Assembly: GCA_944321455.1 (NCBI GenBank)
Contig: CALULI010000004.1
Span: 1 to 64,000, forward strand
Reading direction: 5' to 3'
Source: an uncultured Eggerthellaceae bacterium
GTDB taxonomy: Bacteria; Actinomycetota; Coriobacteriia; Coriobacteriales; Eggerthellaceae
Length of the DNA: 64,000 nucleotides
The stretch's first letter is position 1, and each line of letters starts with the position of its first letter. A program made the translations under genes and the position numbers. This document shows positions 23,403 through 34,988 of this stretch, one piece after another. The notes below the pieces were generated by a model. It made no database searches, was not told where the DNA came from, and worked only from the letters and a program-made list of their open reading frames with translations.

Positions 23403-24032
23403 CTAGTAAACCCTACGAAGAACGGCAACTACTTTGCCCACAATGGCGCAATCACGGGTAATAATAGGCTCCATAGATGAATTTTCGGGCTGCAAGCGAA
23501 TATGATCCTGTTCCTTATAAAAACGCTTCACCGTAGCTCCGTCTTCTAAGAGCGCAACAATAATTTCGCCATTTCGAGCCGTTTGCTGTTGACGAACAAC
23601 AACGTAGTCCCCGTCATTAATTCCAGCTTCAATCATGGAATCACCATGAACGGACAAGATGAAAGAAGCCGAATCACCCACAAGATCTGTTGGAAGAGTC
23701 ATGTGGTCAGTAATGTTTTCTTCTGCCAAAAGAGGTTGACCAGCTGCCACGTTGCCAACTAAAGGAAGCGTGAGTGCGTTGTCAAACGAAACAGCACCAA
23801 GGCTGTCTTCTTGATTGCGATGGGCAAGAGCAATGGAGCGCGACTTGAGCTTGTCACGCACAATATAGCCCTTATCTTCAAGAGCCTTGAGGTGCACATG
23901 GACAGTAGAAGGGGAGGAGAGATTAACCGCTTCGCAAATTTCACGAACCGTAGGACCAAACCCCTTTTGATGAACGTAGGATTCAATGAAGTCATATACC
24001 TGTTGTTGACGCTTGGTTAATGCATCGCTCAT
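23403..24032 (-). CDS. lexA: SOS repressor LexA
   Basis: A 209-residue protein. The winged-helix DNA-binding domain is residues 1-70 (TKRQQQVYDFIESYV, FGPTVREICEAVNLSSPSTVHVHLKAL). The self-cleavage site is A97-G98, the catalytic pair is S132 (HGDSM) and K169 (TVKRF). It represses SOS genes until RecA filaments trigger cleavage. GAGGAAA precedes the ATG. Three LexA boxes lie in the 107-bp gap to the divergent gene, so it controls itself. Confidence 0.96.
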   Translation of the reverse strand: MSDALTKRQQQVYDFIESYVHQKGFGPTVREICEAVNLSSPSTVHVHLKALEDKGYIVRDKLKSRSIALAHRNQEDSLGAVSFDNALTLPLVGNVAAGQPLLAEENITDHMTLPTDLVGDSASFILSVHGDSMIEAGINDGDYVVVRQQQTARNGEIIVALLEDGATVKRFYKEQDHIRLQPENSSMEPIITRDCAIVGKVVAVLRRVY

Positions 24033-24049
24033 AAAAATTTCCTCACTAC

Positions 24050-24061
24050 GAACAAATGTTT
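24050..24061. promoter_or_regulatory. LexA box 1
   Basis: GAAC-AAAT-GTTT, preceded by C and followed by G: one mismatch to the Gram-positive SOS box GAAC-N4-GTTC. It lies in the lexA leader, and upstream of the -35 of the opposite gene. Confidence 0.75.
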
Positions 24062-24070
24062 GATTTTTTA

Positions 24071-24099
24071 TTGACAGGAACGGATGTTCGATATAAAGT
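24071..24099 (+). promoter_or_regulatory. Promoter of the SOS-boxed small membrane protein gene
   Basis: A perfect -35 TTGACA (24071-24076) is followed after 17 nt by TAAAGT (24094-24099); an alternative TATAAA lies at 24092. LexA box 2 fills the spacer and box 3 covers the expected start point near 24106. Confidence 0.75.
24078..24089. promoter_or_regulatory. LexA box 2
   Basis: GAAC-GGAT-GTTC, a perfect match to the SOS consensus. It sits between the -35 and -10 of the plus-strand promoter, and just past the expected lexA start point. Confidence 0.88.
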
Positions 24100-24124
24100 A
24101 TACACGAACAAAAGTTCTATGCAA
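24097..24124 (-). promoter_or_regulatory. lexA promoter
   Basis: Read on the minus strand, TTGCAT (24124-24119) and TATACT (24102-24097) are 16 nt apart, with box 3 in the spacer. The -10 overlaps that of the divergent promoter by 3 bp. Confidence 0.65.
24106..24117. promoter_or_regulatory. LexA box 3
   Basis: GAAC-AAAA-GTTC, a perfect SOS box. It starts exactly 28 bp after box 2, which starts exactly 28 bp after box 1. Confidence 0.88.
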
Positions 24125-24139
24125 GTAGGGAGGCGCATT

Positions 24140-24451
24140 ATGGCAACGAAACACTATACTTATCGCACTAACGGCACGTCAGCTCTTAAATATGATATTG
24201 ATGCGCATGACGAAACTCCAATTATCCAATTTGAAGCATATGCTCAACAACCAGAACCTGTACGTCGTCGAAATACCATTTCGCAGGATGAATATTCACT
24301 TTTTAATACGACGATCGATTCAATTAATTCATCAGTGAAAGATCTTTTTAAAACCAGCGCAAAAGTTAATAGGCGCGAAGGTTTAGTTTGTACAGCAATA
24401 GTTGCGGGAACGTTTGCTTTGCTAGTTGTAGGTGTAATGCTTGGTTTTTAG
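24140..24451 (+). CDS. SOS-controlled small tail-anchored membrane protein, function unknown
   Basis: A 103-residue protein I do not recognise. Residues 1-78 are polar and cytoplasmic-looking, with a basic stretch (EPVRRRNTISQDEY) and a helix-prone part (LFNTTIDSINSSVKDLF). Residues about 79-103 form one membrane segment (CTAIVAGTFALLVVGVMLGF) that ends the protein. It diverges from lexA under three LexA boxes. In Bacillus, Corynebacterium and Mycobacterium this position is held by the SOS division inhibitors YneA, DivS and ChiZ, so a division-arrest role is inferred; no LysM domain or similarity is visible. The ATG at 24140 has GGGAGG 6-7 nt upstream; an upstream in-frame start at 24056 would lie in the operators. 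Confidence 0.85.
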   Translation: MATKHYTYRTNGTSALKYDIDAHDETPIIQFEAYAQQPEPVRRRNTISQDEYSLFNTTIDSINSSVKDLFKTSAKVNRREGLVCTAIVAGTFALLVVGVMLGF

Positions 24452-24579: not shown

Positions 24580-25029
24580 ATGCGTTGTCCATCTTGTGGT
24601 CACTTAGAATCAAAAGTAGTAGACTCCCGTCCATCTGAAGACGGTGCTTCCATTAGACGCCGTCGTGAATGTCTTTCTTGTGGTTATCGTTTCACGACCT
24701 ATGAACGTGCTGGAGATAACCCTTTAGTAATTATCAAGTCTGATGGTTCCTCTGAAGCGTATGATCGCAATAAATTATTTAGAGGACTTTTAATAGCGTG
24801 TGCAAAACGTCCTATATCTTCAGATCAGATTTCAAACCTTATTGATGGCATTGAATTCGATTTGCGCAACAATTTCCGCAATGAAATTTCTTCGCGTGAT
24901 CTTGGCGATATGGCATTGGAGCGCTTGGCAGATCTTGATGAAGTTGCCTACATTCGTTTTGCAAGCGTGTACAAAGATTTCCAAAACGCTGAAGAATTTA
25001 GAGAAGCATTAAAGAGGATTGACCACTAA
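24580..25029 (+). CDS. nrdR: Transcriptional repressor NrdR
   Basis: A 149-residue protein. A zinc ribbon (CPSCG at 3-7 and CLSCGYRFTTYER) is followed by an ATP-cone domain. It represses ribonucleotide reductase genes by sensing ATP/dATP. No nrd gene is near, but lexA-nrdR proximity is common in Actinobacteria. AAGGAGC precedes the ATG. It is followed 21 nt later by dut, another deoxynucleotide gene. Confidence 0.95.
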   Translation: MRCPSCGHLESKVVDSRPSEDGASIRRRRECLSCGYRFTTYERAGDNPLVIIKSDGSSEAYDRNKLFRGLLIACAKRPISSDQISNLIDGIEFDLRNNFRNEISSRDLGDMALERLADLDEVAYIRFASVYKDFQNAEEFREALKRIDH

Positions 25030-25050: not shown

Positions 25051-25494
25051 ATGGTGAGTATTCCCGTTCAAGTTTCAAAACAAGGCGCTGTAATCCCTTC
25101 TAAGGCCTATAAAGGCGATGCTGGGTATGATTTATCATCCGTTGAAAAAGTGATCCTTAAACCGTTTCAGAGAGCATTGATCTCCACGGGTTTATCTTTG
25201 GCTATTCCTGAAGGCTATGGCGGCTTTGTTGTGCCGCGTAGCGGTCTTGCTATCAAGCAAGGACTATCCATAGTCAACGCACCAGGTTTAATAGATAGCA
25301 ACTATCGTGGTGAAATTAAAGTGATCGCGATTAATCTTGATCCTGAACATGACATTGTCATTAATCCTGGGGACCGCATTGCACAGCTTGTGGTGATGAG
25401 TGTTGAAGAAATCAACTTTATGCGCGTTGATGAGCTCAGTGATTCAGAACGAGGCGAAGGTGGCTTCGGTAGCAGCGGAGTTTCTCAGGGCTAA
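25051..25494 (+). CDS. dut: dUTP diphosphatase
   Basis: A 147-residue trimeric-type dUTPase with all five motifs: [34 protein letters not shown] and the C-terminal [10 protein letters not shown]. It splits dUTP to dUMP, keeping uracil out of DNA and feeding dTMP synthesis. It is probably co-transcribed with nrdR; AAAAGGA precedes the start. Confidence 0.95.
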
Positions 25495-33904: not shown

Positions 33905-34924
33905 TTACTCTTCGGCAAGAGGAGCATTATCAAGAGGTTCAAGTTCGTAGTATTCACGAACCTTATTCTCAATTTCATTGCGCAAGTCCGGATTTTCTTT
34001 CAACGTACGCTTTGCGGCTTCTCTGCCTTGGCCAAGACGTTCATCGCCGTAGTTAAACCAAGAACCGCTTTTAGCAACAATTCCTGCTTCAACGCCCATA
34101 TCAAGAACGCAGCCTTCTTTTGAGATGCCTTCACCATACATGATGTCAAATTCAGCTTGGCGGAATGGTGGTGCAACCTTGTTCTTAACTACTTTTGCGC
34201 GAACGCGATTACCAATGAATTCGCCATCTTTTTTCAAGGAGTCAAAGCGTCTGATGTCAATGCGGACACTGGAGAAGAACTTCAATGCACGACCACCCGT
34301 TGTTGTTTCGGGATTACCAAACATAACGCCAATTTTTTCACGTAATTGGTTAATGAAAATGCACGTGGTGTTTGACTTAGAAAGCGAACCAGCAAGTTTA
34401 CGGAGTGCCTGGCTCATGAGACGTGCTTGAAGGCCGACCGTGGTGTCTCCCATTTCACCTTCAATTTCTGCACGAGGAACAAGAGCAGCAACGGAGTCAA
34501 TAACGACGCAGTCAATTGCACCTGAGCGAACTAACATGTCGCAGATTTCAAGTGCTTGCTCACCAGTATCAGGCTGAGAGATAAGCATTTCATCTACATC
34601 TACGCCAAGCTTTGCAGCATAGACAGGATCAAGAGCGTGTTCTGCGTCAATAAAGGCAACGACACCACCCATAGCCTGGGCTTCAGCGATGATGTGGAGG
34701 GCAACGGTAGTCTTACCACTTGATTCAGGACCATAGATTTCAACAATGCGGCCACGAGGAACACCACCAATACCCAAAGCAATATCAAGAGGAAGTGCAC
34801 CGGTTGGAATGGCTTCTACTTGGAGACTAGCAGCATCCCCAAGTTTCATAATTGCACCTTTGCCAAATTTATGTTCGATTTGATCTGTTGTGATTTTGAG
34901 TGTGTTTTCTTTATCCGAAGTCAT
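33905..34924 (-). CDS. recA: Recombinase RecA
   Basis: A 339-residue RecA with Walker [32 protein letters not shown], the loop [40 protein letters not shown], and a C-terminal acidic tail. It catalyses strand exchange and triggers LexA cleavage. AAAGGGAG precedes the ATG. A perfect LexA box sits in its promoter, 45 nt upstream. Confidence 0.98.
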
Positions 34925-34959: not shown

Positions 34960-34988
34960 ACCATACACGAACATGCGTTCGTGTGCAA
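34960..34988 (-). promoter_or_regulatory. recA promoter
   Basis: On the minus strand TTGCAC (34988-34983) and TATGGT (34965-34960) are 17 nt apart. The LexA box fills the spacer, the same layout as at lexA. Confidence 0.65.
34969..34980. promoter_or_regulatory. LexA box of recA
   Basis: GAAC-ATGC-GTTC, a perfect match, extended to 8-base arms ACACGAAC and GTTCGTGT (34965-34984). Confidence 0.92.

Follow-up and report, generated by a model that had tools for sequence, protein, structure and literature searches.

A LysM-less, tail-anchored protein encoded opposite lexA in Eggerthellaceae, a probable reduced relative of known SOS division inhibitors

Gene X and the lexA intergenic region

The window, that is, the whole 64,000-nucleotide stretch of DNA that was analysed, comes from an uncultured gut bacterium of the Eggerthellaceae and carries lexA and a small divergent gene, here called X, followed by nrdR and dut. 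The features considered in this work are the following.

23403 to 24032, minus strand: lexA, divergent from gene X (TIGR00498, 233 bits)
24049 to 24062, palindrome: LexA box 1, CGAACAAATGTTTG, with one core mismatch (palindrome scan)
24071 to 24099, plus strand: sigma-70-like promoter of gene X, TTGACA-17-TAAAGT, 10/12 matches (promoter scan)
24077 to 24090, palindrome: LexA box 2, GGAACGGATGTTCG, perfect core, inside the promoter spacer (palindrome scan)
24105 to 24118, palindrome: LexA box 3, CGAACAAAAGTTCT, perfect core, just downstream of the -10 (palindrome scan)
24127 to 24133, plus strand: Shine-Dalgarno AGGGAGG of gene X, six bases 5' of the ATG (sequence)
24140 to 24451, plus strand: gene X, 103-aa tail-anchored protein, SOS-regulated as judged by sequence (ORF list, family HMM, AlphaFold2)
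24173 to 24190, plus strand: N-terminal motif GTSALK, residues 12-17 of X, common to LysM-bearing relatives (alignment, HMM)
24221 to 24232, plus strand: second motif IIQF, residues 28-31 of X (family consensus IIxFP; (V/L)IEGG in LysM-bearing relatives)
24371 to 24379, plus strand: R-R-E, residues 78-80 of X, cytoplasmic helix end (E/Q at the equivalent place in the family)
24377 to 24439, plus strand: predicted C-terminal membrane helix, residues 80-100 of X, with 3 residues after it (AlphaFold2)
24580 to 25029, plus strand: nrdR, next gene 3' of gene X, same order in most relatives (NCBIfam/Pfam search)
25051 to 25494, plus strand: dut (dUTPase), after nrdR (NCBIfam/Pfam search)
34968 to 34981, palindrome: perfect LexA box upstream of recA (33905-34924, minus strand), an independent check of the box consensus

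The gap between lexA and gene X is 107 bp, and the gene X promoter carries three LexA-type palindromes spaced 28 bp, with the core GAAC-N4-GTTC. The first-pass annotation had described perfect LexA boxes, which holds for two of the three, box 1 having a single mismatch. When up to two mismatches were allowed, a scan of the whole window gave 28 boxes against 23.8 by chance, which is not significant alone, so that the case for the boxes rests on their clustering, conservation and strict form. In 95 distinct Eggerthellaceae lexA intergenic regions, 254 boxes were seen against 3.4 expected by shuffling; three were present in 67 regions and two in 26, giving two or three in 93/95. Across the 1.55-Mb genome, the strict form CGAAC-N4-GTTCK, from which the genome-wide LexA regulon was judged, has only 5 occurrences: the gene X promoter, recA, an IMS-family Y-family polymerase, a small gene of no assigned family and a place (L218) that falls inside an unrelated ORF and was discounted as fortuitous. 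Regulation of gene X by the three boxes lying around its promoter is well supported at the sequence level, in line with the SOS induction that had been proposed for it.

Two similar-looking proteins of about 100 aa are encoded elsewhere in the same genome, each adjoining a strict LexA box (L221:1134-1454 and L222:1159-1452, both on the minus strand); one of them is divergent from a Y-family polymerase gene, and neither matched Pfam or PHROGs.

An in-frame start at 24056 would give a longer product of 131 aa, with no ribosome site seen; position 24140 was chosen as the start because the AGGGAGG ribosome site precedes it and the family alignment begins there. That the 103-residue frame is a real gene was confirmed by this site and by a leave-one-out family HMM, which found X at E=1.5e-6 among the 454 ORFs of the window, the next unrelated ORF appearing at E=1. 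AlphaFold2 predicted no structure for residues 1-79 and one confident helix for residues 80-100, agreeing with the single membrane segment at the very end of the protein that had been read from the letters; with R-R preceding this helix, the N-terminus is predicted to lie inside.

No significant match to X was found in Pfam, NCBIfam or PDB sequences (in NCBIfam none at E up to 10), and the family is, as had been suggested, undescribed. A housekeeping family, which would have contradicted the SOS proposal, was looked for in Pfam, NCBIfam, PDB and PHROGs and none was significant; a PHROGs match (E=0.036) and a Pfam laminin-like match (E=0.041) were both judged chance. Neither a LysM nor a hydrolase domain was found in X with Pfam and NCBIfam, as already noted in the first-pass annotation, and no LysM was found anywhere in the 1.55-Mb genome.

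A family conserved beside lexA

X belongs to a conserved, single-copy family located beside lexA in Eggerthellaceae and allied Coriobacteriales families. Eggerthellaceae loci typically have an ORF of some 70-160 aa that begins 100-130 nt from lexA and points away from it, its product terminating in a membrane helix. Among 199 Coriobacteriales genomes, the family matches with E<1e-4 were all single-copy and beside lexA; most of the weaker ones (E=0.004-0.01) were located elsewhere and look like chance. In the 39-row family alignment M1, G12 and A15 were invariant and L16, F31 and G64 nearly so. The 41-aa protein of L101 was left out of the family as doubtful. L003 has lost the gene, and its 26-aa ORF, which the script termed 'mini', does not belong to the family. 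The 'none' given to L126 in the tree reflects only the fact that its protein is a duplicate of that of L098.

In most relatives lexA, X and nrdR keep the same slot and neighbours. This order, with dut also following in the window, could mean that X serves NrdR or nucleotide supply, as a regulator or as a membrane tether, and not the divisome. Such a role seems very unlikely, because the same order is found with LysM-bearing, YneA-like proteins in place of X, where it is hard to see what would connect an extracellular domain to NrdR, and the synteny is accounted for by shared ancestry.

The slot in Adlercreutzia holds a 23-aa peptide (e.g. MARYEFPIAFALSTIASFVIFFA) that is nearly all helix; its start position is unchanged, and so are the boxes and the ribosome site ahead of it. 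These micropeptide loci (L016, L018, L046, L052, L068, L069, L073 and L078) are below normal annotation size; among eight distinct coding sequences pN/pS was 0.26, and the position of the stop codon was fixed through TAG, TAA and TGA. Forms of 29-38 aa, with an E near the helix start, were found at the lexA slot in other orders of the class (L155, L157, L159 and L161). A small SOS-boxed protein with a single helix, represented in Adlercreutzia by little else than that helix, might be a membrane-active, TisB-like toxin, lowering growth by membrane depolarisation and not by divisome inhibition. We find this improbable, considering that the ancestral LysM form and the slot belong to division inhibitors and that a long conserved cytoplasmic motif is unexpected in a pore peptide.

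Judged from coding sequences, the X family is under purifying selection where close pairs exist: dN/dS was 0.10-0.47 in 13 of the 14 close relative pairs giving a value, the window's own copy not being among them, and the exception (L095/L108, 2.37) is a pair of nearly identical sequences with almost no changes. Gene X was absent from the Eggerthellaceae loci L074, L079, L084-L086, L125 and L190, and the LexA boxes remained at members where the gene was gone. It was also absent, with the boxes kept, from G002, a fragmented draft and the sole congener with a lexA locus.

In that congener (L279) nrdR-dut is inverted beside lexA, and a long, repetitive-looking, cell-surface-like ORF adjoins nrdR. 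Neither lexA nor a family member was found in another Eggerthellaceae genome, G011 (99% complete, 1.4 Mb), a possible loss of the LexA system.

The loss of X in several Eggerthellaceae, including the congener, and the variation in family length from 45 to 158 aa are what would be expected if LysM-less X were a decaying relic, no longer inhibiting division and drifting toward loss, kept by the promoter next to lexA; YneA deprived of LysM fails to inhibit division (PMC13396833). Against this stand the dN/dS values, the N-terminal motif preserved in 69/86 members, the two or three boxes in nearly every region and the 23-aa form, which is under selection and has its stop position fixed, and we therefore hold a relic to be unlikely.

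Common ancestry with LysM-bearing proteins and loss of LysM

In two other families of the order, f4 and f10, and in f2, the slot between lexA and nrdR is occupied by a protein whose N-terminus is cytoplasmic, whose helix is central and whose LysM domain is extracellular. Pfam LysM was matched by 16 of the 17 sampled LysM-type slot proteins of the class, and all 17 matched NF010723 ('cell division suppressor protein YneA') with E no higher than 1, the best at E=2.1e-16; the sole displayed score, 44.5 bits, is below the curated cut-off of 60. X itself did not match this curated model, unlike its LysM-bearing relatives, so that the profile comparison with YneA suggested in the first-pass annotation came out negative for X and positive for the LysM-bearing proteins of the same slot. 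A survey of lexA neighbours in Coriobacteriia, also suggested there, turned up the X family, LysM-bearing relatives and short forms in the lexA slot; at some Eggerthellaceae loci the gene was missing. In 119 Coriobacteriia genomes 80 of 88 LysM matches adjoin lexA, the lexA-linked SOS protein thus accounting for nearly all of them; LysM was beside lexA in 0/19 Eggerthellaceae genomes.

The N-termini of the LysM-bearing and tail-anchored forms matched each other by HMM at E=1.9e-7 and 2.8e-5 (680 shuffled sequences reached 0.5 at best) and by profile comparison with hhalign (93%, E=3e-7). The motif G-[TSN]-x-A-[LM] was present in 69/86 tail-anchored and 30/34 LysM-bearing (f4/f10) proteins and in 0/23 proteins of other orders, with about 0.1 in shuffles. 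The homology spans about 30 residues only, and the middle region has no clear similarity between the two forms. Because the motif and the HMM and profile matches are far above shuffles, a common ancestor of the two forms, at least in the N-terminus, is well supported by these comparisons.

The dissimilar middle region and the lack of a family match for X would also fit the loss of a LysM gene whose slot was then taken by a different membrane protein. We regard such a replacement as most improbable: the N-terminal motif is common with the LysM forms, two LysM-less f4 members (L147 and L216) retain the motif of the LysM form (in L147, GTSAL followed by VVIDGG), and the f7 form L232 has a stretch after the helix without LysM. 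An independent newcomer in the slot was discarded on the common motif together with the LexA tree.

In the LexA protein tree the LysM-less families f1, f3, f5, f6, f8 and f9 grouped together, as sister to the group holding the LysM-bearing f4, f10 and f2; support for this key branch was moderate (81) and nearby forks were open. The fewest LysM changes on the tree were five, including separate losses in two f4 genomes and in the basal group with 29-38-aa forms; the count alone gives no direction, and loss is the likelier one because LysM is present in outgroup orders. This suggests a single LysM loss at the base of the clade containing Eggerthellaceae, with further losses elsewhere. Descent in common with the LysM-bearing slot proteins was thus indicated by the N-terminal motif, the profile comparison, the slot and the tree, and X appears to be related to the known inhibitors as a reduced form and not to be the independent solution that the first-pass annotation had envisaged.

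Proposed action of X and known SOS division inhibitors

In YneA the helix binds FtsW TM7, with K5, E6, F10, V11 and F14 being critical (2026 study, PMC13396833). Inhibition by YneA needs LysM binding to peptidoglycan, and the helix of B. subtilis YneA without LysM localises and does not inhibit (PMC13396833). SosA requires its extracellular part (PMC6851548), so that X, in losing LysM, could have lost its function or changed it. For ChiZ, however, the N-terminus and helix are reportedly enough to cause filamentation (PMC7355643); the 29-aa SidA stops division by way of FtsW (PMC4211646).

E or Q, a loose category, was the final polar residue ahead of the helix in 60/88 proteins of the tail-anchored form, 12/12 of the short form and 26/57 of the LysM-bearing form; in background N-in helices the share was 18%. 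For three of the 12 short proteins a different residue was picked by the automatic scan and an E a few positions on was counted instead, and the p-values for these counts ignore relatedness. Three FtsW/RodA-family proteins are encoded in the genome of the window.

Taken together, the evidence makes it probable that X is a LexA-controlled, membrane-anchored division inhibitor of the YneA/ChiZ type that has lost LysM and acts through its helix, most likely on FtsW, and its cytoplasmic tail. LexA would occupy the three boxes over the shared promoter, and cleavage triggered by RecA would release it and allow X to be made. Once in the membrane, the protein would have its disordered N-terminus in the cytoplasm and end with the helix; this helix, E/Q-capped at its cytoplasmic end like K5/E6 in YneA, may dock on the septal peptidoglycan synthase, and septation would be held until LexA has built up again. 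As for the conserved N-terminal motifs, their probable role is to bind another partner in the cytoplasm or to set turnover. We infer division inhibition, FtsW as the target and the role of the N-terminus from these comparisons, and halting of division by X after DNA damage is plausible. More tentatively, the checkpoint may have been pared down in steps within one lineage, the peptidoglycan-binding protein giving way to a tail-anchored one and this to a 23-aa helix, an intramembrane contact with FtsW alone stopping division with nothing outside the cell.

Should X act via its helix on a septal synthase, division could be stopped without an extracellular domain, unlike with YneA. Published work disagrees on the need for LysM, essential in YneA and reportedly not in ChiZ; as a single genomic slot of Coriobacteriia holds natural versions with LysM, without LysM and as a 23-aa helix, this need becomes directly testable. 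No publication on SOS division control in Coriobacteriia was found in the open-access literature searched, and our analysis names a likely SOS division checkpoint for the common gut bacteria Gordonibacter, Adlercreutzia and Slackia.

Our best inference is that X represents a new form of the known SOS division inhibitors, the novelty being a LysM-less, tail-anchored form. The gene adjoins lexA, in the same slot as those of YneA, DivS and ChiZ, as the first-pass annotation had pointed out. Like YneA of Bacillus subtilis, X is LexA-controlled by sequence, encoded near lexA and predicted to have one N-in helix, and its R-R-E (E/Q in the family) at the cytoplasmic helix end resembles K5/E6; unlike YneA, it has no LysM and nothing past the helix, and its cytoplasmic N-terminus is long whereas YneA has almost none. 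ChiZ (Rv2719c) of Mycobacterium tuberculosis shares with X a disordered cytoplasmic N-terminus, one helix and the slot adjoining lexA, but keeps a linker and LysM. DivS of Corynebacterium glutamicum is likewise SOS-induced, with one helix, encoded beside lexA and described without LysM (PMC6851548), but it has an extracellular C-terminus; both ChiZ and DivS were compared by description, not by sequence. SosA of Staphylococcus is also encoded beside lexA, SOS-induced and without LysM; its helix, however, is N-terminal and its extracellular C-terminus essential (PMC6851548), whereas in X the order is reversed and nothing lies outside. Finally, the 23-aa Adlercreutzia form is close in size to SidA of Caulobacter (29 aa), an SOS-induced single-helix inhibitor acting on FtsW (PMC4211646), a likeness by description for which no common ancestry is claimed.
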